A stretch of DNA of 13,494 bases from the NCBI GenBank assembly GCA_021107335.1, contig JAIOSZ010000125.1:1-13494 (forward strand), in the 5' to 3' direction. Shown one piece after another: positions 482-13,352 of this stretch. The notes beneath the pieces are model-generated. The model was not told where the DNA came from. It worked only from the letters and a program-made list of their open reading frames with translations, and ran no database searches. The stretch is from Desulfuromonadaceae bacterium (GTDB taxonomy: Bacteria; Desulfobacterota; Desulfuromonadia; Desulfuromonadales; Syntrophotaleaceae). Each line of letters starts with the position of its first letter. Positions within the stretch are counted from its first letter, which is position 1. A program made the translations under genes and the position numbers.

Positions 482-517
482 AAAAAGGGAGCGAACCATT
501 GGTTCGGTCCCTTTTTT
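482..517 (+). terminator. Rho-independent terminator after the glycine-zipper gene
   Basis: The stem pairs AAAAAGGGA and CGAACC (one G:G mismatch between them) with GGTTCG and TCCCTTTTT around an ATT loop. It ends in a run of six T. The A-run on the 5' side means it could also stop transcription on the minus strand. It separates the first gene from the SAM-cycle module. Confidence 0.9.
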
Positions 518-521
518 CGTC

Positions 522-550
522 TTGACCTATTGGAGGCCTCATGATAGATC
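522..550 (+). promoter_or_regulatory. Candidate sigma-70 promoter for sahR-ahcY
   Basis: TTGACC (522-527) matches the -35 consensus at five of six positions. Exactly 17 bases later lies TAGATC (545-550), a weak -10 (three of six). It lies just after the upstream terminator and before the regulator gene, and its -10 overlaps the inverted repeat at 548-563. A repressor bound there would block it. The poor -10 keeps confidence moderate. Confidence 0.45.
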
Positions 551-566
551 AATGTAGCTTGATGTA
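545..566 (+). promoter_or_regulatory. Inverted repeat, candidate SahR operator
   Basis: ATCAA (548-552) and TTGAT (559-563) form a perfect inverted repeat with a 6-base spacer. Flanking TA (545-546) and TA (565-566) extend the dyad, and the central TA (555-556) is also symmetric. It ends 25 bases before the sahR ATG. ArsR-family repressors bind such dyads near promoters, and SahR is known to control ahcY and its own operon in related bacteria. Assigning this dyad to SahR is inference. Confidence 0.6.
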
Positions 567-591: not shown

Positions 592-1587
592 ATGTTGCAG
601 ACTCTTAAAGCGTTGGCTGACCCGACTCGGCTTCGATTATTGGGCATCTTAACCCATGGAGAATTTACGGTGCAGGAATTGACCGCTATCCTTTCTATGG
701 GGCAGTCCAGGATTTCCCGGCACTTACGTATTCTTACCGAGGCTGGAATCGCCTCGGTCAAGCGCCAAGGGACTTGGGGGTACTATCGTCTGGATATTGG
801 CGATAGCCTTTTTGATGAACTGTGGAGCAATCTCGAAAGGCATCTCGATACCCTTGCCGATTGGCCAAGGGATCGAAATAACCTGATGTCGGCCTTGGAA
901 GAGCGTCGTGGTCGCAGTCAGCGGTTCTTTGATCAACATGCGACTCAATGGGATCAGCTGGCTCGTGAATTGTTGCCAGTGGTCGATTATCGAACCCAAC
1001 TGCTTCAGCAAGTGCCCCATTGCCACTCTTTGTTGGAGGTCGGCGGCGGCACTGGAGCCATGTTGCCCGCATTGTCGGTTAAGGCGACTCACATCGTGGC
1101 AGTCGATCATTCAGCTGGAATGCTGGCTGAGTCCAGAAAACATGCTGAGCAGCAGGGAGTGCATAAGGTTGAATTTCGTTTAGGGGAAATGAGCCATTTG
1201 CCTTTGTGCGATGCCGAGGTGAACTGGGCCGTTCTCGACATGGTGTTGCATCATGCCCCACAACCGGCCCTGGTGTTGCGAGAGCTTGCCCGCGTGCTTT
1301 CATCTGGTGGTGGCGTGACAATTGCTGATTTTCAACGCCATGAGCAGGAATGGGTGCGAAGCAGGCTGGCCGATCAATGGCTCGGTTTCGACATTTCTGA
1401 GCTTGAAGATTGGTTTCACCAAGCAGGATTTGACAAGCCGGAATTTCGTTATGTTTCCGCTAGCGGACAAGAACATGACGTGATTTTGTGTACTGCACGA
1501 AAAAAAGGTGACCGAATTGTTGTTGATAGATCGAATTCAAGGGAAAAGACTTTTACATTATCTCGTTACAAAAAGGAGTGCTTTGAT
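592..1587 (+). CDS. sahR: SahR-like ArsR regulator with SAM-methyltransferase-type sensor domain
   Basis: Residues 1-90 form an ArsR winged helix ([12 protein letters not shown], then the recognition helix near [10 protein letters not shown] at 39-48). Residues ~105-300 form a Rossmann methyltransferase-like domain: motif [10 protein letters not shown] at 147-155, an acidic residue at VAVDHS (169-174), and the [12 protein letters not shown] strand (211-222). SahR regulators of this architecture repress SAM-cycle genes and release DNA when S-adenosylhomocysteine fills the methyltransferase-like pocket; the adjacent ahcY supports that role. GAGGAAAGG (572-580) is the likely ribosome binding site for ATG 592, and an in-frame TGA at 571-573 excludes a longer start. 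Oddity: there is no stop before ahcY, so the frame continues through about 30 linker residues (303-332) into the hydrolase. The end given here is the base before the ahcY ATG. The free protein may instead end near 1511 by a -1 shift at the A7 run. Methylation of a small substrate cannot be excluded. Confidence 0.8.
1500..1511 (+). other. A7 run with -1 frame stop at the sahR-ahcY junction
   Basis: Seven A (1500-1506) are read in frame as the last base of CGA and then AAA AAA, the arrangement A-AAA-AAA-G favoured for -1 slippage. After a -1 shift the next codons are AGG and TGA (1509-1511), ending the regulator as a 306-residue protein. In the +1 frame the first stop is the TGA at 1589-1591, which overlaps the ahcY ATG as ATGA. 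No clear SD-like stimulator or strong downstream stem is visible, so a sequence error in the homopolymer is an equally good explanation. Confidence 0.5.
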
Positions 1588-3012
1588 ATGACAAACGCCG
1601 CCCAAACAGATTGTTTGATCAAGGATATCGCATTGGCTGATTGGGGCCGCAAGGAAATCCGCATTGCCGAAGCTGAAATGCCCGGCTTGATGGCATTGCG
1701 TGAGGAATTTGGTGGTCAGAAACCACTGGCTGGGGCCCGCATTACCGGTTCCCTGCACATGACCATTCAGACTGCGGTTTTGATCGAGACTCTGGTCGAA
1801 CTCGGGGCTGATGTGCGCTGGGCCAGCTGCAATATCTACTCAACCCAGGATCATGCTGCTGCGGCCATCGCTGCTGCGGGGGTCCCCGTTTTTGCCTTTA
1901 AGGGAGAGACTCTAGAGGAATACTGGCGTTATACCAAGGCAGCACTAAGCCATCTCGATGGACCGAACCTGATTGTCGATGACGGCGGCGATGCCACCAT
2001 GCTCGTGCACCGCGGTGCTGAGCGGGAAATAGAGTTTGAAAAAACCGGTCAGTTGCCAGCCATTTCCGCTGAAAATAAGGAAATTGCCATCGTCGACCAG
2101 TTGCTTAATGAAACCCTTGAAGAGGATCCTTCTCTTTGGCGTCGTATGGCCAAAGGGCTCAAGGGAGTCAGTGAAGAGACCACCACAGGAGTTCATCGTC
2201 TCTATCAGATGGCCCGGGAAGGCAGCTTGATGTTTCCTGCTTTTAACGTCAACGATTCGGTAACCAAAAGCAAGTTCGACAACCTCTACGGATGCCGAGA
2301 GTCTCTTCTCGATGGTATCAAGCGGGCTACCGATGTCATGGTGGCCGGTAAAAAGTGTGTTGTACTCGGGTATGGGGATGTTGGCAAGGGCTGTGCACAG
2401 GCCTTTCGCGGCATGGGGGCCATGGTATTCGTCACCGAGGTTGACCCCATCTGTGCGCTGCAGGCCGCTATGGAGGGCTTTCCCGTAGTGAAGATGGACG
2501 ATGCCTGTGCTTTTGGGGATATTTTCGTCACCACTACCGGTAATGTTGATGTCATTACCCGTAGCCATATGGATCGTATGAAAAACGAGGCGATCGTCAG
2601 TAATATTGGCCACTTTGATTCAGAAATTCAGGTTGATGCGGTTTATGACGACCCCAGTCTAGTGATCCATGAAATCAAGCCTCAGGTTGACCAAATTGAG
2701 TGGCCCGATGGAAAACGCATAACTATTCTAGCTCGTGGTCGGCTGGTTAACCTCGGCTGTGCTACTGGTCATCCGTCATTTGTCATGTCGGCCTCCTTTA
2801 CCAATCAAGTGCTGGCTCAGATTGAATTATGGATTAATACTGATAGCTATGAAAACAAGGTTTATGTGTTGCCCAAGCATTTGGATGAAAAGGTGGCTCG
2901 TTTGCATCTGGGTAAGCTGGAGGTGCAGTTGACGGAGATGACGGCTAAGCAAGCTGAATATCTTGGTGTTGAGGTTACAGGACCCTACAAGCCTAGTCAT
3001 TACCGCTATTAA
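1588..3012 (+). CDS. ahcY: S-adenosylhomocysteine hydrolase (adenosylhomocysteinase)
   Basis: Cytosolic NAD-dependent enzyme that splits S-adenosylhomocysteine reversibly to adenosine and homocysteine, relieving product inhibition of methyltransferases and feeding the methionine cycle. The 474 residues from ATG 1588 match the usual bacterial length. Visible landmarks are the substrate-site segment TGSLHMT (53-59), [12 protein letters not shown] (82-93), the bacterial-type insert near 145-185, [14 protein letters not shown] (219-232), the NAD-binding loop GYGDVGKG (261-268), SNIGHFD (338-344) and the conserved C-terminal KPSHYRY. AAGGAG (1573-1578) lies nine bases before ATG 1588, a strong independent start, so ahcY can be made separately even though the upstream regulator frame runs into it without a stop. 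Expression is probably controlled by SAH through the upstream SahR-like repressor. The identification is certain; only whether a fused form exists is open. Confidence 0.97.
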
Positions 3013-3438: not shown

Positions 3439-4534
3439 ATGTTTCGTGAAGAAATTGAGGCCTTAAAGAAACTTCAGGTCAAGCTCGATGAGCTGAGGGG
3501 GTATCTTTGAACTGCCGGCCAAAAAAGAGCGTATCGCTGAGCTAGAGGCAGAAATTGCTCGGCCCGGTTTCTGGGATCAGGGTGATAAGGCCCAGGATTT
3601 GCTCAAAGAACGGACTGGGCTGGGGAAGGTGGTAGAGAAGTGGGAGCAGGCAGCTGCTGAACTTGAGGATCTACAAGTTCTGGTGGAGTTGGGGGAAGAG
3701 GACGAAGATCAGGAGTCCCTCGATGAGGTGCGAGAGCTGTTGCCGGGGCTGATTCAGCGGGTGGATAAGATGGAATTTGCCCGCATGCTGTCTGGCGAGC
3801 ACGACGCCAACAACGCTATTTTCAGTATCAACGCAGGTGCTGGCGGGCTTGAGGCTCAGGATTGGGCCGATATGCTGCTGCGCATGTATCTGCGGTTTTT
3901 TGAAAAGAAGGGCTACAAATCTAATGTTACCGACTATCAACCCGCCGAAGAAGGTGGAATCAAGAGCGTCACCGTGACCGTAGAAGGGGACTATGCCTAC
4001 GGCTGGCTGCGTTCAGAAATCGGTATTCATCGATTGGTGCGAATTTCGCCCTTCGATTCCAATGCTCGGCGGCATACGTCTTTCAGTTCCGTCTTCGTGT
4101 TTCCCGAACTGCCTGACGAAGTTGAAGTTGAAATCAACGAAAAAGACCTCAAAGTCGATACCTATCGCGCCAGCGGTGCAGGCGGCCAGCATGTCAATAA
4201 AACCGATTCGGCCATCCGTATCACCCATGTTCCTACGAATACCGTGGTGGCCTGTCAGAACGAGCGCTCCCAACACAAAAACCGGGCCACGGCCTTAAAG
4301 CAGCTCAAGGCACGACTCTTCGAGTTGGAACAACGCAAGAAGGCTGAAGAGGCCTCGGCTATTGCTGGCGATAAGATGGAGATCGGTTGGGGTAGTCAGA
4401 TTCGTTCTTATGTGTTGCACCCCTATCGCATGGTCAAGGACCATCGCACCAGTTTCGAAGTGGGCAATGCCGATGCGGTTTTGGACGGCGATCTCGACGG
4501 CTTTATCGAGGCTTTTCTGCTCGGTGGTAAATAG
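3439..4534 (+). CDS. prfB: Peptide chain release factor 2, programmed +1 frameshift
   Basis: RF2 reads UGA and UAA stop codons and triggers peptide release on the ribosome. ATG 3439 follows TAAGGAG (3424-3430). Codons 1-23 (ending RGYL) run into an in-frame TGA at 3508-3510. Skipping one base (the T at 3508) joins 3439-3507 to 3509-4534 and gives 364 residues, against 365 in E. coli. The stop-recognition tripeptide SPF is at 203-205 and the catalytic GGQ at 248-250 (in RASGAGGQHVNK). The residue before SGAGGQ is Ala, as in most bacteria, not the Thr of E. coli K-12. The frameshift is the known autoregulatory device: low RF2 lets the ribosome pause at UGA and slip +1, making more RF2. The gene forms a conserved pair with lysS, 168 bases downstream. 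A simple gene caller would wrongly start it at 3599. Confidence 0.97.
3496..3511 (+). promoter_or_regulatory. RF2 +1 programmed frameshift site
   Basis: The SD-like AGGGGG (3496-3501) stands three bases (TAT) before CTT, followed by TGA (3508-3510), the same arrangement as in E. coli prfB. The base after TGA is A, whereas E. coli has C. The downstream frame (GAA CTG CCG) continues into typical RF2 sequence, which confirms the shift. Confidence 0.96.
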
Positions 4535-4702: not shown

Positions 4703-6187
4703 ATGGAAGAACTGAACGATATACTGTTGCAACGTCGGGCCAAAGTCGATGAATTTCGCGAGCAGGGGATCAATCCTTTTGCCAACGATTTTTCCGTCAG
4801 CCACACTGCGGCGCAGGTCAAGGAGGCTCATGCCGAGCATGATGCCGCTGCGCTGGGAAGTTGCGATCAGGATTATGCTGTGGCCGGCCGGATTATGGCC
4901 CGCCGTGATTTCGGCAAGGCCGCATTTATTCAGATTCAGGATCGTACCGGCAGGCTGCAGGTCTTTGTCCGCCGGGATGAGATTGGGGACGAAACCTTTC
5001 AGCACTTTCGTAAGCTGGATATCGGCGATATCGTTGGCGTGACGGGCCGGATGTTTCGCACCAAAACCAATGAGCTCTCGCTGCGGGCCGCTTCCCTACG
5101 GCTGTTGACCAAGTCGCTTCAGGTGTTGCCTGAAAAATGGCATGGTCTGACCGATGTAGAGACCCGCTACCGCCAGCGCTACCTCGATATGATCGTCAAT
5201 CCCCAGGTGCGCGACACGTTTCAAAAACGCAGTCGTATTGTCAGTCTGATCCGTGACTACATGGTGCAGAACGATTTTCTTGAGGTGGAAACCCCGATGA
5301 TGCAGCCGGTGGCTGGCGGGGCCACGGCCAAGCCTTTCGTTACCCACCACAATACTTTGAAGATGGATCTCTTTTTACGCATCGCTCCAGAACTCTATCT
5401 GAAAAGATTGGTGGTCGGCGGCTTTGAACGGGTTTTCGAGATCAATCGCAATTTCCGTAACGAAGGGATTTCTATTCAGCACAATCCCGAATTCACCATG
5501 ATCGAGTTCTACCAGGCTTATGCCACTTACCAAACCCTGATGGATTTTACCGAGAAGCTGATCTGTCATGTGGCACAAGAGGTGGTCGGTAATCTGGTCA
5601 TTCCCTACGGTGGCAAGGAGGTAGACCTGACGGCTCCTTGGGATCGGTTGACATTGAAGGAATCGATTATCAAGTACGGGGATGTCGAGCCAGCTCTGTT
5701 GGAGGATAAAGCCCAAGCCCTTGGCTACGCACGTAGCCTCGGTCTCGAATTTGACGATAACATCGGTCACGGCAAATTGCTCACCGAGATCTTCGATGAG
5801 GTGGTGGAACCTAAATTATGGAACCCGACCTTCATTACTGAATATCCTACCGAGGTTTCTCCTCTGTCGCGAAAAAATGATGACAATCCCGAGGTCGTCG
5901 ACCGTTTTGAACTATTTATAGTTGGGCGCGAGCTGGCCAATGCTTTCTCCGAGCTGAACGATCCAATCGACCAGAAAGAACGCTTCATCGGCCAGTTAGC
6001 TGAAAAAGAGGCGGGTGATGAAGAGGCTCACGCCATGGATGAGGACTACATTCGTGCTTTGGAGTATGGCCTTCCGCCTACCGCCGGTGAAGGGATAGGT
6101 ATCGACCGGCTGGTCATGCTGTTGACCGACTCCGCCTCGATTCGGGATGTTATCCTCTTTCCCCAGTTGCGGCCTGAAAGCAAGTAA
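4703..6187 (+). CDS. lysS: Lysyl-tRNA synthetase, class II
   Basis: Charges tRNA-Lys with lysine in the cytosol. The 494 residues contain an N-terminal OB-fold anticodon-binding domain (about 55-135, with VAGRIMARRDFGKAAFIQIQD at its core). The class II catalytic core follows: motif 1 around 175-205 (FLEVETPMMQ), motif 2 at 243-270 (VFEINRNFRNEG then HNPEFTMIEFY) and motif 3 GEGIGIDRL at 462-470. TEYPTEVSPLSR (379-390) is the lysine-pocket segment typical of bacterial LysRS. ATG 4703 was chosen because MEELNDILLQRR is the family-like start and GAAAGGG precedes it by about ten bases; in-frame upstream codons back to 4667 have no support. It follows prfB, as in many proteobacteria, and has lolC 73 bases downstream with no terminator between them. 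Confidence 0.97.
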   Translation: MEELNDILLQRRAKVDEFREQGINPFANDFSVSHTAAQVKEAHAEHDAAALGSCDQDYAVAGRIMARRDFGKAAFIQIQDRTGRLQVFVRRDEIGDETFQHFRKLDIGDIVGVTGRMFRTKTNELSLRAASLRLLTKSLQVLPEKWHGLTDVETRYRQRYLDMIVNPQVRDTFQKRSRIVSLIRDYMVQNDFLEVETPMMQPVAGGATAKPFVTHHNTLKMDLFLRIAPELYLKRLVVGGFERVFEINRNFRNEGISIQHNPEFTMIEFYQAYATYQTLMDFTEKLICHVAQEVVGNLVIPYGGKEVDLTAPWDRLTLKESIIKYGDVEPALLEDKAQALGYARSLGLEFDDNIGHGKLLTEIFDEVVEPKLWNPTFITEYPTEVSPLSRKNDDNPEVVDRFELFIVGRELANAFSELNDPIDQKERFIGQLAEKEAGDEEAHAMDEDYIRALEYGLPPTAGEGIGIDRLVMLLTDSASIRDVILFPQLRPESK

Positions 6188-6260
6188 CAGTCGTATTAAG
6201 ATTCACGGCAAGAACGGGGCAGGGTTTGCCCGCTCCAGTTACCATGTCAAACGGGGTTCT

Positions 6261-7514
6261 ATGGGTTACGAGTGGTTCGTCAGTCTGCGCTATCTGCGTG
6301 CCAAGCGTAAGCAGACCTTCATATCGGTCATTTCCTTTATCTCCATCGCCGGGGTAACCTTAGGTGTTGCTGCGCTGATTATCGTGCTGGCGGTCATGAC
6401 CGGCTTTCATGATGGCGTGCGGAAGCAGATTCTGGGAAATGTTCCCCATGTGCTGGTGCAAAGACAGGGGGGGAATATTCCCGCCTATCAAGAGCTGGTG
6501 AGTGAACTTCGCCAAGCGTCACCCGACATTCTGGCTGTGACGCCTTATGTCGCCAAGGAAGCCATGCTGCTCGCCAAACGTAATGTGGCTGCAGTGAATG
6601 TGAAGGGGCTGCCGCGGGGGCATAAGGTTTTTCAACAGACTTTTCTGACGGCCGCTGGCAACGAAGTTGAGCAAGCCCTGTTTGCCGAGGGGGAAGGGGC
6701 CCCTGGTTTGGTGATCGGCCTCGACACCGCGGCAACCCTCGGTGTGACCGTTGGCGATACAGTCAATGTCATTCCCCCCATGTTCACCATTACTCCCTTT
6801 GGCCTGATCCCGAAGATGAAGCCTTTTCGGGTGGTCGGTATCGTCAGTCAACGGGGTGGCTTTCTAGATACCTATTATGCCTATATTCCTCTGGCTGTAG
6901 CACAGAACTTTTTTGATGCTTCCAATCAGGCCAGCGGTGTTGAAATTGAGGTGGCCTCCTACGATAAGGCCACGCCTTTAGCGAAGCAGTTGCGCAGCCG
7001 GTTGACCTTTCCTCTGGTCGTACGTTCTTGGGAGGATTTATTCGGTTCGTTTCTGTCCGCCCTTAAGCTGGAAAAGCTCGGTTTATTTATTGTGCTGGCC
7101 ATCATTGTGCTGGTGGCCGCTTTTAATATTGCCACCACGCTGATCATGGTGGTCATGGAAAAGCACAAAGATATTGCCATTCTGCGCTCCATGGGTGCGA
7201 CCTCTCGCAGTATCATGAAAATATTTGTGCTCGAAGGATTGATCATCGGCTTCATGGGAACCGGTCTCGGCACCTTGTTGGGTGTTTTACTGGCCAAGCA
7301 GGCCGATCCCATCATCAAGGGGCTCGAAGGTGTCTTAAAGATCAAGATTTTCGATCAAGCAGTCTACGGTATGGATCGTTTTCCTTCGGTGGTTATCCCC
7401 GAAGATGTGCTCAAGGTGGTCCTGGTGGCCATGAGCATCTGTCTATTGGCTACGGTCTATCCAGCCTTTCGTGCCTCGCGCATGGATCCGGGGGAAGCTT
7501 TGCGTTATGAATGA
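6261..7514 (+). CDS. lolC: Lipoprotein-releasing ABC transporter permease, LolC/LolE family
   Basis: Inner-membrane permease that, with LolD, extracts outer-membrane lipoproteins and hands them to the periplasmic chaperone LolA. The 417 residues show the family layout: N-terminal [33 protein letters not shown] with the first membrane helix at about 22-48, a long periplasmic domain (50-268), then three helices at about 272-300, 318-346 and 383-403. The cytoplasmic [13 protein letters not shown] coupling segment (301-313) contacts the ATPase. ATG 6261 fits the conserved MxYEWF start, although only a short GGGG (6253-6256) serves as ribosome binding site; an in-frame upstream extension into lysS is not family-like. 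Only one permease gene is present here, so it probably acts as a homodimer, as in bacteria lacking separate LolC and LolE. It overlaps lolD by eight bases, so translation is coupled. Confidence 0.93.
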
Positions 7515-8196
7515 TGCCCACAAAGAAGCTTTGATCGAGGTTCAGGGGCTTAGCAAGCACTATGTATGCGGAGAACGGCGTGTCGAGGTGCTGAGGGAAG
7601 TCAGTTTGCAGGTTGCTAGTGGTGACCAGGTGGCATTGGTGGGAGCTTCCGGTGCGGGTAAAACCACTCTGATGCATATCCTTGGTGGGCTGGATCGCCC
7701 AAGCAGCGGTACGGTGCGTTATCAGCAGCAGGACCTCCTGTCGCTGAAAGGTGAAGCCCTCGACGTTTTTCGCAACCGAACCATCGGTTTCGTCTTTCAG
7801 TTTCACCAATTGTTGCCGGAATTTACCGCTCTGGAAAATGTTATGATGCCGGCCTTGATTGCTGGACGAGGCTTTCGTCGCGCCCGAGGTCCCGCTGAGG
7901 CGATTCTGCAGGAAGTCGGGCTGGGGCAGAGGTTGGAGCATAAACCGGGAGAACTGTCCGGTGGGGAACAACAGCGGGTGGCCATCGCACGGGCTTTGGT
8001 CATGGAACCGCAGTTGCTGCTGGCCGATGAGCCGACCGGCAACCTGGACAGTACTACCTCCGACGAGATCTATCGTCTTTTACAGCAACTGCATCGGGAT
8101 CGAGGCTTGACAATGATCATCGTCACCCATAGCCAGACCTTGGCCGGCCGCATGGGGCGGATTTTACAGATGGTGGATGGTGAAATAGTATCCTGA
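7507..8196 (+). CDS. lolD: Lipoprotein-releasing ABC transporter ATPase LolD
   Basis: Cytoplasmic ATPase that powers lipoprotein extraction by the LolC/E-type permease. The 229 residues hold Walker [10 protein letters not shown] (46-54), the Q-loop in [18 protein letters not shown] (96-112), the ABC signature LSGGEQQR (150-157), Walker B with D-loop [12 protein letters not shown] (170-181) and the H-loop His in VTHS (206-209). [21 protein letters not shown] is the characteristic LolD/MacB-subgroup sequence. ATG 7507 lies inside the end of lolC; GGGGGAAG (7490-7497) supplies the ribosome binding site. A longer in-frame start at 7471 would read through lolC and is not needed. The stop lies directly before the bamA promoter. 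Confidence 0.96.
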
Positions 8197-8202
8197 TTTT
8201 CG

Positions 8203-8231
8203 TTTACAGTTTTTTTGCATTTACCTATAAT
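8203..8231 (+). promoter_or_regulatory. Strong sigma-70 promoter for the bamA operon
   Basis: TTTACA (8203-8208, five of six) and a perfect TATAAT (8226-8231) are 17 bases apart, starting seven bases after the lolD stop. Transcription would begin near 8238, leaving a leader of about 35 bases. It allows bamA-skp-lpxD-fabZ-lpxA to be expressed independently of lysS-lolCD. Confidence 0.85.
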
Positions 8232-8271
8232 TGCGCTTTTTATATGCCATTTCGACGGAGTTGTGCTGCTT

Positions 8272-10524
8272 ATGTCTAGGGTGTTGTTGTGTTTGCTTTT
8301 ATTGGCGATGCTGGTCCCGCAGGGCGCTTTTGCCCAGTTGTATCAGGTTGGACAGGTCGTTATTGAGGGAAATCGGCGAGTCGAAAGCCGCTACATCGAA
8401 TCGGTGTTAAATATCAGCGCCGGTCAAACCGTATCCGCTGCTGACATCGATCAAGGGTTGCGCAAAATCTACTTAACCGGCCGTTTTGATGATGTGGTTG
8501 CCGAAACAGTTGTGGCTGGAGAGTTGGTGCATCTGGTCTATCGAGTAACTGAACGGCCTTTGTTGCGCGAGGTTGTCTTTACCGGTAATCACAAGATCGA
8601 CTCCGATAAGCTCGGCACCATCATTAGCGCCAAGTTGGTAGATTTTTATCGGCCGCAGGTTTTGGCTCCGGCGATCAGAAAAATTAAGCAGGCCTATGTA
8701 ATGGAGGGGTATTACGCGACCGAGGTCGCACCTCAGGTCGATGTCAATGATCGTAACGAGGTCACCCTGACGCTGCAGATTGAAGAGGGCGAGCGGGTGT
8801 TTGTCACCGATATCCGCTTTGAAGGCAACACGGTTTTTAGCGAAAAAGCACTTAAGAAATCCCTCTTTTCTAAAGAAAAAGGGTTTCTTTCCTTCATCAC
8901 CGAACGGGGCGCCTACAAAGAGGACATGTTATTCGCCGATCGGGATGTCATTACCGACCAGTATTACAACCGGGGTTATATCCAGGTCAAAGTCAAAAAG
9001 CCGATAATGACCCTGCTTGACGACAAAGAATCGATGGCTGTGGTATTCGAAATTGAGGAGGGCAATCAATTTCGAGTCGGAAATGTCGATATTCAAGGCG
9101 ATCTGTTAGGTAGCAAAGAGGAGATGCTGTCCACGTTGACTCTGCGCTCAGGTGAGGTCTTCAGTCGCAAAACGTTGCGCCAAAACATGAAGCAGCTCAA
9201 CGATATGTACGCCGATGAAGGCTATGCCTTTGTTAATGTTTCGCCGGTGACTGATGTCGATCCTTTTCTGCAGCAAATCAATGTGGTGCTCAATGTCGAG
9301 CGGGGGGCGAGGGTTAGTATCGGCCGCATCAGCGTAGCCGGCAACACCCGTACCCGGGACAAGGTGGTCCGCCGTGAAATGCGCCTCACTGAAGGGGATT
9401 TTTACAGCGCTAGCAAGATGAAAAACAGCCGCCGCCGAATCAACAATCTGGGTTTTTTCGAAGAGGTGAATCTAACCACCAGTCGCGGTAGCGACGACGC
9501 TCATATGGATGTGGAGGTGGATGTACAGGAAAAGGCCACAGGCTCATTCAGTATCGGTGCGGGTTTCTCCTCTGCTGACGGCCTGTTGCTGCAGGGCGCT
9601 GTGTCGCAGGAAAACTTCCTGGGTCGCGCTCTACGTTTCGATCTGTCTGCTGCACTGGGTGGTAGCAGTACCACCTTTCGCCTTGGTCTGCTCGATCCTT
9701 ACTTTCTTGACCGGCACCTCGCCTTTGGCGGTGATCTGTATAACACCGAACGAGAGTGGACCGATTTTACCCGTAAGACCACTGGTGGGGATATCAAACT
9801 TGGTGTGCCTCTTACCGAAAATACACGCAGCTTCTTTATCTATCGCTATGAAAAGAAGGATATCTTTGATGTAGATGATGACGCTCCACGATCGATAACA
9901 GATCAGGAAGGTAAGCATACCCTTTCCTCTATTACCGCCTCGTTGAGTCGTAATACCACGGACTATCGCCCGGACCCGACCCGCGGTAATATATCCGAAA
10001 TCTCCGTCGAGTATGCCGGCCTCGGCGGTACCGAAAAATTCATTAAATATATCGCTGATCATCGCTATTTTTATCCCTTGCCCTGGGGCCTGGTCTTCTC
10101 AGCCCATGGTCAGGTCGGTTTTATTCAGGAAATGTCTGGTCAGGACAGCCCTCTGGATGAGCGTTTTTTTCTCGGAGGTATGAATAGTCTGCGCGGCTTT
10201 AATTCTCGCGAGGTTGGACCCCGCGAAGTAGAAGCTGACGGGGAAGGCTATTTTTATGGGGGCAACAAGGAGGCCTATTTCAATCTTGAGGTTTCCTTCC
10301 CGCTGGTCAAATCGATGAAGATGAAAGGCCTGGTTTTCTTCGATACTGGCAATGCCTGGAGTGAGGAGGAAGAATATTTCAGCGACATGCGCTACAGCGT
10401 CGGCGCTGGCATGGCTTGGAATAGCCCCATGGGGCCGCTGCGTTTTGCCTGGGGTTACAATCTTGATCCCGAAGATTATGAAGAGGCGACCGTTTTTGAT
10501 TTTTCTGTTGGCAAGATGTTTTAG
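8272..10524 (+). CDS. bamA: Outer membrane protein assembly factor BamA
   Basis: Core of the BAM complex that folds and inserts beta-barrel proteins into the outer membrane. The 750 residues start with a signal peptide (1-21, cleavage after AFA, mature QLYQVGQVVIEGN). Five POTRA domains follow at roughly 25-95, 96-172, 173-263, 264-344 and 345-420, each with the V-x-x-I/V-x-x-x-G-N-x-x start pattern. The C-terminal 16-strand barrel spans 421-750, with the conserved loop-6 motif LRGF at 639-642 (GGMNSLRGF) and a terminal Phe. ATG 8272 was chosen because the signal peptide begins there and GACGGAG (8254-8260) precedes it; an in-frame TTG at 8215 would add a long non-signal extension. It is followed at 30 bases by skp, its periplasmic partner. 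Somewhat shorter than E. coli BamA (810), mainly in the barrel loops. Confidence 0.97.
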   Translation: MSRVLLCLLLLAMLVPQGAFAQLYQVGQVVIEGNRRVESRYIESVLNISAGQTVSAADIDQGLRKIYLTGRFDDVVAETVVAGELVHLVYRVTERPLLREVVFTGNHKIDSDKLGTIISAKLVDFYRPQVLAPAIRKIKQAYVMEGYYATEVAPQVDVNDRNEVTLTLQIEEGERVFVTDIRFEGNTVFSEKALKKSLFSKEKGFLSFITERGAYKEDMLFADRDVITDQYYNRGYIQVKVKKPIMTLLDDKESMAVVFEIEEGNQFRVGNVDIQGDLLGSKEEMLSTLTLRSGEVFSRKTLRQNMKQLNDMYADEGYAFVNVSPVTDVDPFLQQINVVLNVERGARVSIGRISVAGNTRTRDKVVRREMRLTEGDFYSASKMKNSRRRINNLGFFEEVNLTTSRGSDDAHMDVEVDVQEKATGSFSIGAGFSSADGLLLQGAVSQENFLGRALRFDLSAALGGSSTTFRLGLLDPYFLDRHLAFGGDLYNTEREWTDFTRKTTGGDIKLGVPLTENTRSFFIYRYEKKDIFDVDDDAPRSITDQEGKHTLSSITASLSRNTTDYRPDPTRGNISEISVEYAGLGGTEKFIKYIADHRYFYPLPWGLVFSAHGQVGFIQEMSGQDSPLDERFFLGGMNSLRGFNSREVGPREVEADGEGYFYGGNKEAYFNLEVSFPLVKSMKMKGLVFFDTGNAWSEEEEYFSDMRYSVGAGMAWNSPMGPLRFAWGYNLDPEDYEEATVFDFSVGKMF

Positions 10525-10554
10525 ATTATTCATATCCACGCAAAGGAGTATGTT

Positions 10555-11085
10555 ATGAAAAGACTTTGGATAGGTTTAGTGGTAGTGCTGATGCTGGTGG
10601 CAACCCCGGTTTTTGCCGCGGACATGAAAATTGCTTTTGTCGATCTGCAGAAGGCACTGATGGAAAGTGATGCCGGCCAGGCCGCAAAGGTTAGCATGGG
10701 GCAGCGGGTCAAAGAATTTCAGACCACCGCTCAGCAACGCCAGGAAACTCTCAAAAAGTTGAATCAGGAGTTGGAAAAAAAGAGGCTGATGCTTTCTGCT
10801 GAGGCCAAGGCTGAAAAAGAGCGGGACTATCAACAGCAGACCAAAGATTTTCAGCGCTTTATCAAGGACGCGCAGGAGGAGTTGCAGCAAGAAGAGGCTC
10901 GTCTGGGCCGCAATATTCTCGAAGGTCTGAGCAAGGTAATCAAGGCTCTGGGAGACAAGGAAGGCTACACCCTGGTACTGGAACGTTCCAACGGCGCGCT
11001 GCTGTATGCCGATGATTCCATTGATTTGACTGACAAGGTTATTGCCGCTTACAACAAAGCGTATAAAGCGACTAACGGTAAATAA
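10555..11085 (+). CDS. skp: Periplasmic chaperone Skp (OmpH family)
   Basis: Holds unfolded outer-membrane proteins in the periplasm and delivers them to BamA. The 176 residues begin with a signal peptide (MKRLWIGLVVVLMLVATPVFA, cleavage near 21-22). A short strand segment follows (KIAFVDLQKALMESDAG, 25-41), then a long charged, Gln/Glu/Lys-rich helical region (about 45-120) that would form the tentacle coiled coil. The C-terminal strand region (YTLVLERSNGALLYADDSIDLTDKV, 138-162) completes the trimer body. AAGGAG (10543-10548) stands six bases before ATG 10555. Length and placement between bamA and lpxD are typical. Its stop overlaps the lpxD ribosome binding site. Confidence 0.94.
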   Translation: MKRLWIGLVVVLMLVATPVFAADMKIAFVDLQKALMESDAGQAAKVSMGQRVKEFQTTAQQRQETLKKLNQELEKKRLMLSAEAKAEKERDYQQQTKDFQRFIKDAQEELQQEEARLGRNILEGLSKVIKALGDKEGYTLVLERSNGALLYADDSIDLTDKVIAAYNKAYKATNGK

Positions 11086-11094
11086 GGAGCGTCT

Positions 11095-12126
11095 GTGAAA
11101 ACCCTCAATGAATTGGCAGAACTCATCGGTGGAACGGTGGTTGGCGATGGTGAGGTGGAGATTCATCGGGTGGCAGGCATCGATAATGCCCAACCCGGTG
11201 AAATCACCTTCCTGGCCAATCCCAAATACTTGCCGTTGCTGCAGACCACTCAGGCTTCGGCGGTAATGGTTAAACCTGGGATTGAGGCGCCAGGAGTGTC
11301 TCTACTGGTGTGTCCGAATCCCTATTTGGCCTTTGCCAAGATATTGACCGCTCTGCACGTTGCTAAGCCCGAATGTCGGGGCATCATGGAGGGAGCTTTT
11401 GTCGACCCAGAGGCTAAAATTGCCGACGGAGTGACCATCTATCCCGGTTGCGTTATCGGTAAAGGTGTGACGGTGGGTTCTGGAACCACCCTCTACCCCG
11501 GCGTGCTGCTATATGATAATGTGACTGTGGGAGAAGATTGTTTGATTCACGCTGGCACCGTTGTGCGCGAGGGGTGCCGCATTGGCAATCGGGTCATTAT
11601 CCAGCCCAAGGCTGTTGTTGGATCTGACGGCTTCGGTTTTGCTCCTGACGGTGGAGGTTATTTTAAAATACCTCAGGTGGGTATCGTGGTGATTGAGGAT
11701 GATGTCGAGATCGGTGCCAATGCCTGTCTTGATCGTGCCGCCATGGGCGTGACGCGCATCGGTCGTGGCAGTAAACTCGATAATTTGGTGCAGATTGGAC
11801 ACAACGTCAAAGTCGGAGAGGACAGCATTATTGTCGCTCAGGCCGGCATCGCTGGCAGCACTGAAGTCGGTAAACATTGCACCTTTGGCGGTCAGGTCGG
11901 TATTGCCGGGCACCTCAAGATTGGTGATAATACCATGGTCGGTGGACAGAGCGGAATAACCGCTAACCTGCCCAACGGCGGGGTCTTTTCCGGCACGCCC
12001 GCCATTCCTCATCGTAATTGGCTTCGGGCTTCAATGACCTTCGCTAAGCTTCCGGAAATGCGTAAGGAAATTAATCGGTTAAAGCGCCAGGTCGAAGAAT
12101 TGCAAGCGCTTGTTAAGGAAGGATAG
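11095..12126 (+). CDS. lpxD: UDP-3-O-(3-hydroxyacyl)glucosamine N-acyltransferase
   Basis: Third step of lipid A synthesis: transfers a 3-hydroxyacyl chain from acyl carrier protein to the 2-amino group of UDP-3-O-acylglucosamine in the cytosol. The 343 residues have an N-terminal uridine-binding domain (1-100, with [13 protein letters not shown]). A left-handed beta helix of hexapeptide repeats (about 101-290) contains [19 protein letters not shown] (176-194) and the catalytic His236 in [11 protein letters not shown]-terminal helical tail follows (313-343), with a coiled heptad pattern. The start is GTG 11095, supported by AAGGAG (11084-11089), which overlaps the skp stop; [13 protein letters not shown] is the expected N-terminus. 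Confidence 0.97.
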
Positions 12127-12131
12127 CTAGC

Positions 12132-12575
12132 ATGGAGCTTAACGCACAAGATATAATGAAGATACTTCCCCATCGCTACCCGTTTTTGCTGGTAGATCGT
12201 ATTGTGGAATTGGAGGTTGGTACCAGGGCAGTCGGTATCAAAAATGTGACCATCAACGAACCCTTTTTTCAGGGGCATTTCCCCGGCCACCCCATTATGC
12301 CGGGGGTTTTGATTCTCGAAGCCCTGGCTCAGGTCGGCGGAGTTACGGCGGCGTTGGCTGAAAAAGATGTCGATGATAAGGTAACTTACTTTGTCGGTAT
12401 TGATAAGGCCCGTTTTCGTAAACCGGTGGTGCCAGGCGATGTGCTGCGTCTGCAGATGGATATCAAATACTGCCGCCGTGGCATCTACTGTTTCGAAGGC
12501 AAAGCCTATGTTGAGGACAAGTTGGTGGCGGAGGCAGAACTTAAGGCCACCTTCGCACCGCGCGAGCATTCTTGA
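12132..12575 (+). CDS. fabZ: 3-hydroxyacyl-[acyl carrier protein] dehydratase FabZ
   Basis: Dehydrates 3-hydroxyacyl-ACP to trans-2-enoyl-ACP in fatty-acid elongation, thereby competing with LpxA and LpxD for 3-hydroxyacyl-ACP. The 147 residues form a single hot-dog fold with [16 protein letters not shown] (9-24), the catalytic His49 in the conserved [12 protein letters not shown] motif (48-59) and catalytic Glu63 in ILEALAQ. ATG 12132 is six bases after the lpxD stop, with AAGGAAGG (about 12116-12123) as ribosome binding site overlapping that stop. Its setting between lpxD and lpxA is typical and lets the cell balance lipid A against phospholipid synthesis. Confidence 0.97.
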
Positions 12576-12581
12576 GGAAAT

Positions 12582-13352
12582 ATGATACATCAAACAGCAA
12601 TAGTTCATAAAGGGGCGCAGATCGCTGAGGGCGTCGAAATCGGGGCCTATGCCATTATCGGTGAGCATGTAACCATCGGCGCTGGCACCACCATCGGTCC
12701 CCATACTGTCATCGATGGCTGGACGGAAATTGGCCGGGATAACCGGATATTTCAATTTGCTTCCATCGGGGCACCCCCACAAGATCTTAAATATAGTGGC
12801 GAAAAGACCCTGTTGAAAATTGGCGACCGTAATACCGTGCGAGAATTCGCCACCCTGCATCGGGGTACCGCAGACGGCGGTGGTGAAACGGTCATTGGCA
12901 ATGACAATCTGTTTATGGCCTATTCCCATGTAGCCCACGACTGCCTGTTGGGGAACCATGTTATTATGGCCAACGGTGCCACCCTGGCTGGGCATGTCGC
13001 GGTTGACGACTTTGCTATTCTCGGCGGTTTGTGTGCTGTGCACCAATTCACCCGCATCGGCGCTCATGTTATGATCAGCGGCGGTTCCATGGTCACTCAG
13101 GATGTGCCACCTTTCTCTATCGCCCAAGGAGATCGCGCTAAAACGGTGGGGATTAATCAGATCGGCCTCAAACGGCGGGGCTTTTCCGAGGAAGCAATTC
13201 GTGGGATCAAGCAGGCTTATAAGTTGATTTTCCGTTCCGGGTTACTCACTGAAAAGGCTTTGGAACAGATCGCAAATGAAATTCCAGACTGTCCTGAGGT
13301 TAAAGAGTTTTCCGAGTTTATTCGTAAGAGTACTCGGGGTGTCGCCCGCTAA
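12582..13352 (+). CDS. lpxA: UDP-N-acetylglucosamine O-acyltransferase
   Basis: First step of lipid A synthesis: moves a 3-hydroxyacyl chain from acyl carrier protein to O-3 of UDP-GlcNAc in the cytosol. The 256 residues show hexapeptide repeats forming a beta helix (1-190), DLKYSGE (68-74), the catalytic His119 in SHVAHDC (equivalent to E. coli His125), TLAGHVAVDDFAILGG (134-149) and a C-terminal helical domain ending STRGVAR. Gly167 aligns with E. coli Gly173, the residue that sets the acyl-chain ruler; Gly there favours long (about C14) chains. ATG 12582 follows TGAGGAAA (12573-12580), which overlaps the fabZ stop, so translation is probably coupled. Confidence 0.97.
   Translation: MIHQTAIVHKGAQIAEGVEIGAYAIIGEHVTIGAGTTIGPHTVIDGWTEIGRDNRIFQFASIGAPPQDLKYSGEKTLLKIGDRNTVREFATLHRGTADGGGETVIGNDNLFMAYSHVAHDCLLGNHVIMANGATLAGHVAVDDFAILGGLCAVHQFTRIGAHVMISGGSMVTQDVPPFSIAQGDRAKTVGINQIGLKRRGFSEEAIRGIKQAYKLIFRSGLLTEKALEQIANEIPDCPEVKEFSEFIRKSTRGVAR

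Follow-up and report, generated by a model that had tools for sequence, protein, structure and literature searches.

A SahR-type regulator and AhcY in one reading frame: a stop codon probably lost in a single lineage

Can a sensor of S-adenosylhomocysteine (SAH), a by-product of methylation that is toxic to the cell, and the hydrolase that removes SAH be encoded as one protein, and if so, is the joining of the two a new regulatory arrangement or something more ordinary? The question is raised by the window considered here (the whole stretch of DNA analysed, 13,494 nucleotides in length), in which positions 592–3012 of the + strand read open as a single frame of 806 codons, from the ATG at 592 to the TAA at 3012, just as the first-pass annotation had claimed. 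The identities given there to the two halves, namely an ArsR/methyltransferase-like regulator and AhcY, are confirmed by Pfam and NCBIfam profile matches, which give a domain order of HTH_5 at residues 10–55, methyltransferase domains at about 145–250 and AdoHcyase at 341–805. In the regulator half, the N-terminal ArsR-type HTH (PF01022) scores 45.9 bits against a cut-off of 22, NF033788 scores 80.8 bits against 55, and the C-terminal SAM-methyltransferase-like domain (PF08241) scores 64.5 bits against 21.2; the AhcY half matches the adenosylhomocysteinase equivalog TIGR00936 with 620.9 bits (cut-off 497.6). Judged from its sequence, the domain make-up of the first 307 codons is that of SahR. 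Solved structures of either half (for the regulator 16 listed chains, all of which match just one of its two domains, and for AhcY 49 distinct sequences at E <= 1e-50) have no bearing on the fusion.

The pairing as such is commonplace. A survey of 102 regulator loci (30 + 1 + 71), reduced to 86 distinct ones by dropping identical loci and including the window, found ahcY downstream of the regulator in 83, and within 300 bases of it in 78 of the 82 besides the window; of the three without ahcY, L024 is cut off inside the regulator, L003 continues for only 160 bases beyond it, and L130 continues for 1,046 with no ahcY. Since the two halves are both conserved genes and so regularly stand together, the arrangement is more than chance, and the sole unusual feature of the locus is the absence of a stop between them.

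The SahR regulon and the sahR–ahcY pair were reportedly treated by Novichkov et al. in 2014. According to Leyn et al. (2014, PMC4239095), SahR responds to SAH, its motif is a palindrome of 20 bp, and its core regulon includes both sahR and ahcY; in PMC8877191 data from a rhizobium are taken as support for autoregulation. With the regulon as set out in PMC4239095 the window shares a regulator of the SahR kind and ahcY as a regulon member, and it has a candidate palindromic site upstream of sahR; it differs in that the stop between sahR and ahcY is missing. The candidate operator palindrome (Table 1) is perfect in the related genomes G002 and G003 too, while in G001 and G004 its right half reads CTGAT. 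Three other perfect palindromes among the matches listed (L039, L045 and L048) have, by eye, no SAM-cycle gene adjoining them.

Table 1 Features of the sahR–ahcY locus, in positions of the window.
Feature	Position	Strand	Basis or remark
GC-rich hairpin with T-run, probably the intrinsic terminator of the gene before it	487..517	+	Arms kept in the five genus loci aligned
Palindrome ATCAA-N6-TTGAT, candidate SahR operator	548..563	.	Only exact copy in the window
sahR-type regulator: ArsR-type HTH and SAM-methyltransferase-like domain, 307 codons	592..1512	+	Pfam/NCBIfam, orthologues
A7 run, proposed slippery site	1500..1506	+	Not conserved (alignment and locus survey)
CGA codon where relatives have a TGA stop	1513..1515 (codon 308)	+	Comparison with relatives
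Former intergenic spacer, now coding 24 extra linker residues	1516..1587	+	Length and frame variable among relatives
GGG as against GG in G002; one-base difference that puts ahcY in the regulator's frame	1541..1543	+	Alignment with G002
Shine-Dalgarno AAGGAG of ahcY	1573..1578	+	AAGGAG likewise in G001, G002, G003 and G078
ahcY, S-adenosylhomocysteine hydrolase, 474 codons and TAA	1588..3012	+	TIGR00936 score

What has happened to that stop can be read from close relatives. The codon aligned to the window's CGA is TGA in four of the five closest relatives' genomes, being codon 308 in G001, G002 and G004 and its aligned counterpart in G078, and the fifth, G003, stops with TAG one codon later. 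Among the 11 closest free regulators (P0008–P0018; end positions taken from length, with P0017 counted at 307 after discounting an extra N-terminal Met), ten end at codon 307 and P0011 one codon later, and P0009 ends in ARKKGD, which are the window's own residues right up to the lost stop. The C-termini preceding the TGA are RKKGD in G078 and RKKSA in G002, read in the same frame as the window through the run of A residues; in codons, G078 has CGA AAA AAG GGC GAT and then TGA, and the window has CGA AAA AAA GGT GAC and then CGA. As these relatives keep the same frame and stop at the codon aligned to CGA, A7 represents the normal frame and gives the expected C-terminus. More distant loci stop at other places (e.g. 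L007 at 2473), so that only the close relatives share the precise place of the stop.

These comparisons dispose of one explanation, namely that a homopolymer error at A7 hides two ordinary genes. The arithmetic by which A6 or A8 would restore separate genes was correct in the first-pass annotation, but as an explanation it is contradicted by the relatives' in-frame passage, and it was rejected because either length would give a C-terminus unlike theirs. Against G002 the run is A7-GG to A8-G, with a net length change of zero, and without a length change relative to the closest relative the ideas of a homopolymer error and of a slip both lose their basis.

The differences from G002 that matter are then two: CGA for TGA at 1513–1515, and one extra spacer base at 1541–1543, where G078 likewise has GGG, followed by one A fewer. 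Neither the spacing nor the frame of ahcY is fixed, the gene lying in frame 0 relative to the regulator in 23, frame 1 in 24 and frame 2 in 35 of the 82 other loci, and 13 of these 82 are one in-frame stop short of a fusion; with a spacer frame so variable and so many loci a single stop away, an occasional fusion by stop loss is to be expected. G003, for instance, already has ahcY in frame 0, but with four in-frame stops between. The separate ribosome-binding site and ATG noted for ahcY at 1573–1590 hold up, AAGGAG being followed by the gene's own start codon at 1588–1590, and with both intact free AhcY should still be made.

The spacer of G078 has a peculiarity of its own, an insert of about 157 bases (L037, approximately 748–904, minus strand) flanked on either side by a copy of CAACTATT; by eye, its ends resemble inverted repeats and it includes 7 N, which suggests a MITE-like insertion. 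This genome is filed in a different family, yet the regulator on its short contig (C446, L037) is 81% identical to the window's; as its contamination is given as 8, contig C446 may be misbinned or transferred.

It is thus probable that the locus is the usual sahR–ahcY pair, from which the sahR stop was lost recently in one lineage. An ancestral TGA at codon 308 would have become CGA (if that is the direction of the change), leaving a spacer that by chance keeps ahcY in frame and offers no further in-frame stop. Ribosomes translating the regulator would then run on into ahcY to give a fusion of about 90 kDa, free AhcY would presumably also be made from its own ribosome site and ATG, and the fusion may well be recent, tolerated and nearly neutral. 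Control would be unchanged, SahR repressing its own operon through the palindrome and being released as SAH rises, so that regulation most likely remains that of SahR.

Distinctly less probable is that the missing stop is an error of consensus or assembly, the organism having TGA at 1513–1515 and making two separate proteins. The junction is seen in a single contig of a single metagenome-assembled genome (MAG), which has 351 contigs, a total of 2.18 Mb and a completeness of 67%; each of the 82 other loci ends its regulator frame no later than the ahcY start (L068 and L137 have a 2-base overlap with the aligned ahcY, but in a different frame and unfused); the protein search with residues 1–335 described below did not bring up the window's own fused protein; and the species is represented by this one sequence among those found, the nearest free regulator being 94% identical. 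What makes an error unlikely is the state of the contig. Aligned with G002, the window is colinear throughout 13,459 columns, 94.2% of them identical, and the six indels are of one base each and lie without exception outside genes (with gene bounds as set in the analysis). The contig therefore shows no tendency to indels within genes over 13.46 kb, and the indel in the spacer fits noncoding drift. Ten of ten stop codons, those of ahcY and nine other frames, agree between the two, the one at codon 308 being the only stop difference seen, and together with the indel pattern this leaves the contig without sign of poor quality. A change of T to C is, moreover, atypical of homopolymer errors, and with the two sequences differing at about 5.8% of columns any given difference would be far likelier to be real than an error.

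Further along the window, positions 4703–13352 give matches to lysS, lolCE, lolD, bamA, lpxD, fabZ and lpxA, colinear with G002, the match to lolD (276.7 bits) lying under the cut-off of 307.75. The small protein at 10555–11085, between bamA and lpxD, had no match.

If the open junction is real, how widespread is it? The window is the sole fusion among the 83 loci with ahcY downstream. Regulator orthologues at E <= 1e-50 occur in 52 of the 136 genomes of the order (its own genome included), and the open frames in these 52 are of 285–447 aa, except for the window's, at 812. A conserved fusion is accordingly absent from 82 of 82 other loci and, judged by open-frame length, from 51 of 51 other orthologue-bearing genomes, and on the comparisons made the stop loss is private to one genome among those examined.

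Two protein searches over 5.8 billion sequences were restricted to fusion-length proteins (with residues 1–335 of the 806-aa query, proteins of about 443–1410 aa are admitted), the best 7988 and 7994 candidates by shared words being scored. Among the candidates scored, residues 1–335 of the window gave six matches, P0002 being the one SahR–AhcY protein, and residues 1–325 of P0002 gave seven, again with P0002 alone of that kind. P0002 (799 aa) has the domain order of the window, with 428 of 831 aligned columns identical, but its linker is shorter and different, and its AhcY part contains an out-of-frame stretch, which against the window's ahcY DNA gives a local score of 138 in another frame, 53 in the proper one and 21 in the third. 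P0002 therefore appears to have arisen through indel errors or decay, and could be an artefact of sequencing; the 71 loci found in genome contigs did not include its DNA, their best identity to its regulator being 61%. With relatives lacking the fusion and the searches yielding P0002 alone, a conserved fusion family was rejected. Nor was any report of a SahR–AhcY fusion found in the open-licence papers searched.

Other long proteins were met on the way. An AhcY-wide scan found a match in 138 of 148 genomes of the phylum, with five besides the window (G199, G220, G153, G227 and G191) having open frames of 676–833; in the three of these inspected (G199, G220 and G153), AhcY is preceded by an apparent out-of-frame reading of metK. 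Five SahR-like proteins of 469–586 aa (P0003–P0007) carry PF04480 and PF18741 beside the regulator domains, P0003 having a repetitive DKEPPFVHL-like stretch between its domains; this addition may be readthrough into an inserted element.

That the window encodes a functional fusion under selection, in which a SAH sensor tethered to the enzyme removing SAH couples enzyme dose, local SAH and repression, is decidedly improbable. Both halves are intact, and comparison of the window with G002 gives dN/dS values of 0.115 (regulator) and 0.066 (AhcY); of the 18 amino-acid differences in regulator residues 1–304, six fall on the window side and four on the G002 side, with eight ambiguous. By these figures the regulator is not visibly decaying, but they speak for the regulator and do not address the fusion. 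Set against selection are the occurrence in one of 83 loci and one of 52 genomes, a linker that is simply the spacer with the ahcY ribosome site kept, and the out-of-frame stretch in the only other fusion found. The first-pass annotation pointed out that a fusion would place the sensor physically on the enzyme; that such an arrangement is kept by selection is possible but unsupported. It is natural to think of PutA, a regulator–enzyme fusion that is conserved and has been demonstrated experimentally: as in the frame described here, PutA-like fusions unite in a single chain a DNA-binding domain and an enzyme from one and the same pathway, but the putative fusion of the window is private to one genome.

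Scarcely credible, finally, is a programmed -1 slip on A7 that would produce the free regulator and the fusion at a fixed ratio. A-runs are known slippery sequences, and the heptamer A-AAA-AAA is indeed followed in the -1 frame, after one codon (AGG), by TGA at 1509–1511, where the first-pass annotation had placed it. The run is not conserved, however: of the 82 other loci two have at least seven A within the final 30 nt of their regulator frame, and the five genus loci aligned range from A4 to A8. The 81 nt 3' of A7, folded without pseudoknots, fold worse than their shuffles (z +1.42, with 187 of 200 shuffles folding at least as well) and show no stimulatory RNA structure, and among the relatives examined there is no fusion for a slip to control. 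The slip was rejected on the rarity of the run and the poor folding. A +1 shift does, as had been proposed, run to TGA at 1589–1591 in an ATGA overlap with ahcY when the sequence is read by hand. In contrast to A7, AGGGGGTATCTTTGA at 3496–3510 in prfB, a gene whose listed open frame begins only at 3599, is what we take to be the classic autoregulatory +1 frameshift site. No RNA element reached its gathering score within the window.

All this leaves the loss of one ordinary stop in one lineage as the most likely account, and the locus then has the look of a curiosity rather than of a novel mode of regulation. Were the change a sequence error, it would matter for annotation alone. It is very improbable that the fusion is both made and useful, with each SahR monomer bearing an AhcY subunit, AhcY tetramers holding SahR DNA-binding domains and SAH being depleted beside its sensor; if that were true, it would be a self-resetting repressor with a private enzyme pool. 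Comparison with close relatives can, as here, explain an eye-catching fusion. If the stop loss is real, the locus offers a snapshot of how a regulator–enzyme fusion can begin: from a known operon in which one stop is lost, the spacer is in frame and the second start, still intact, preserves the free enzyme.
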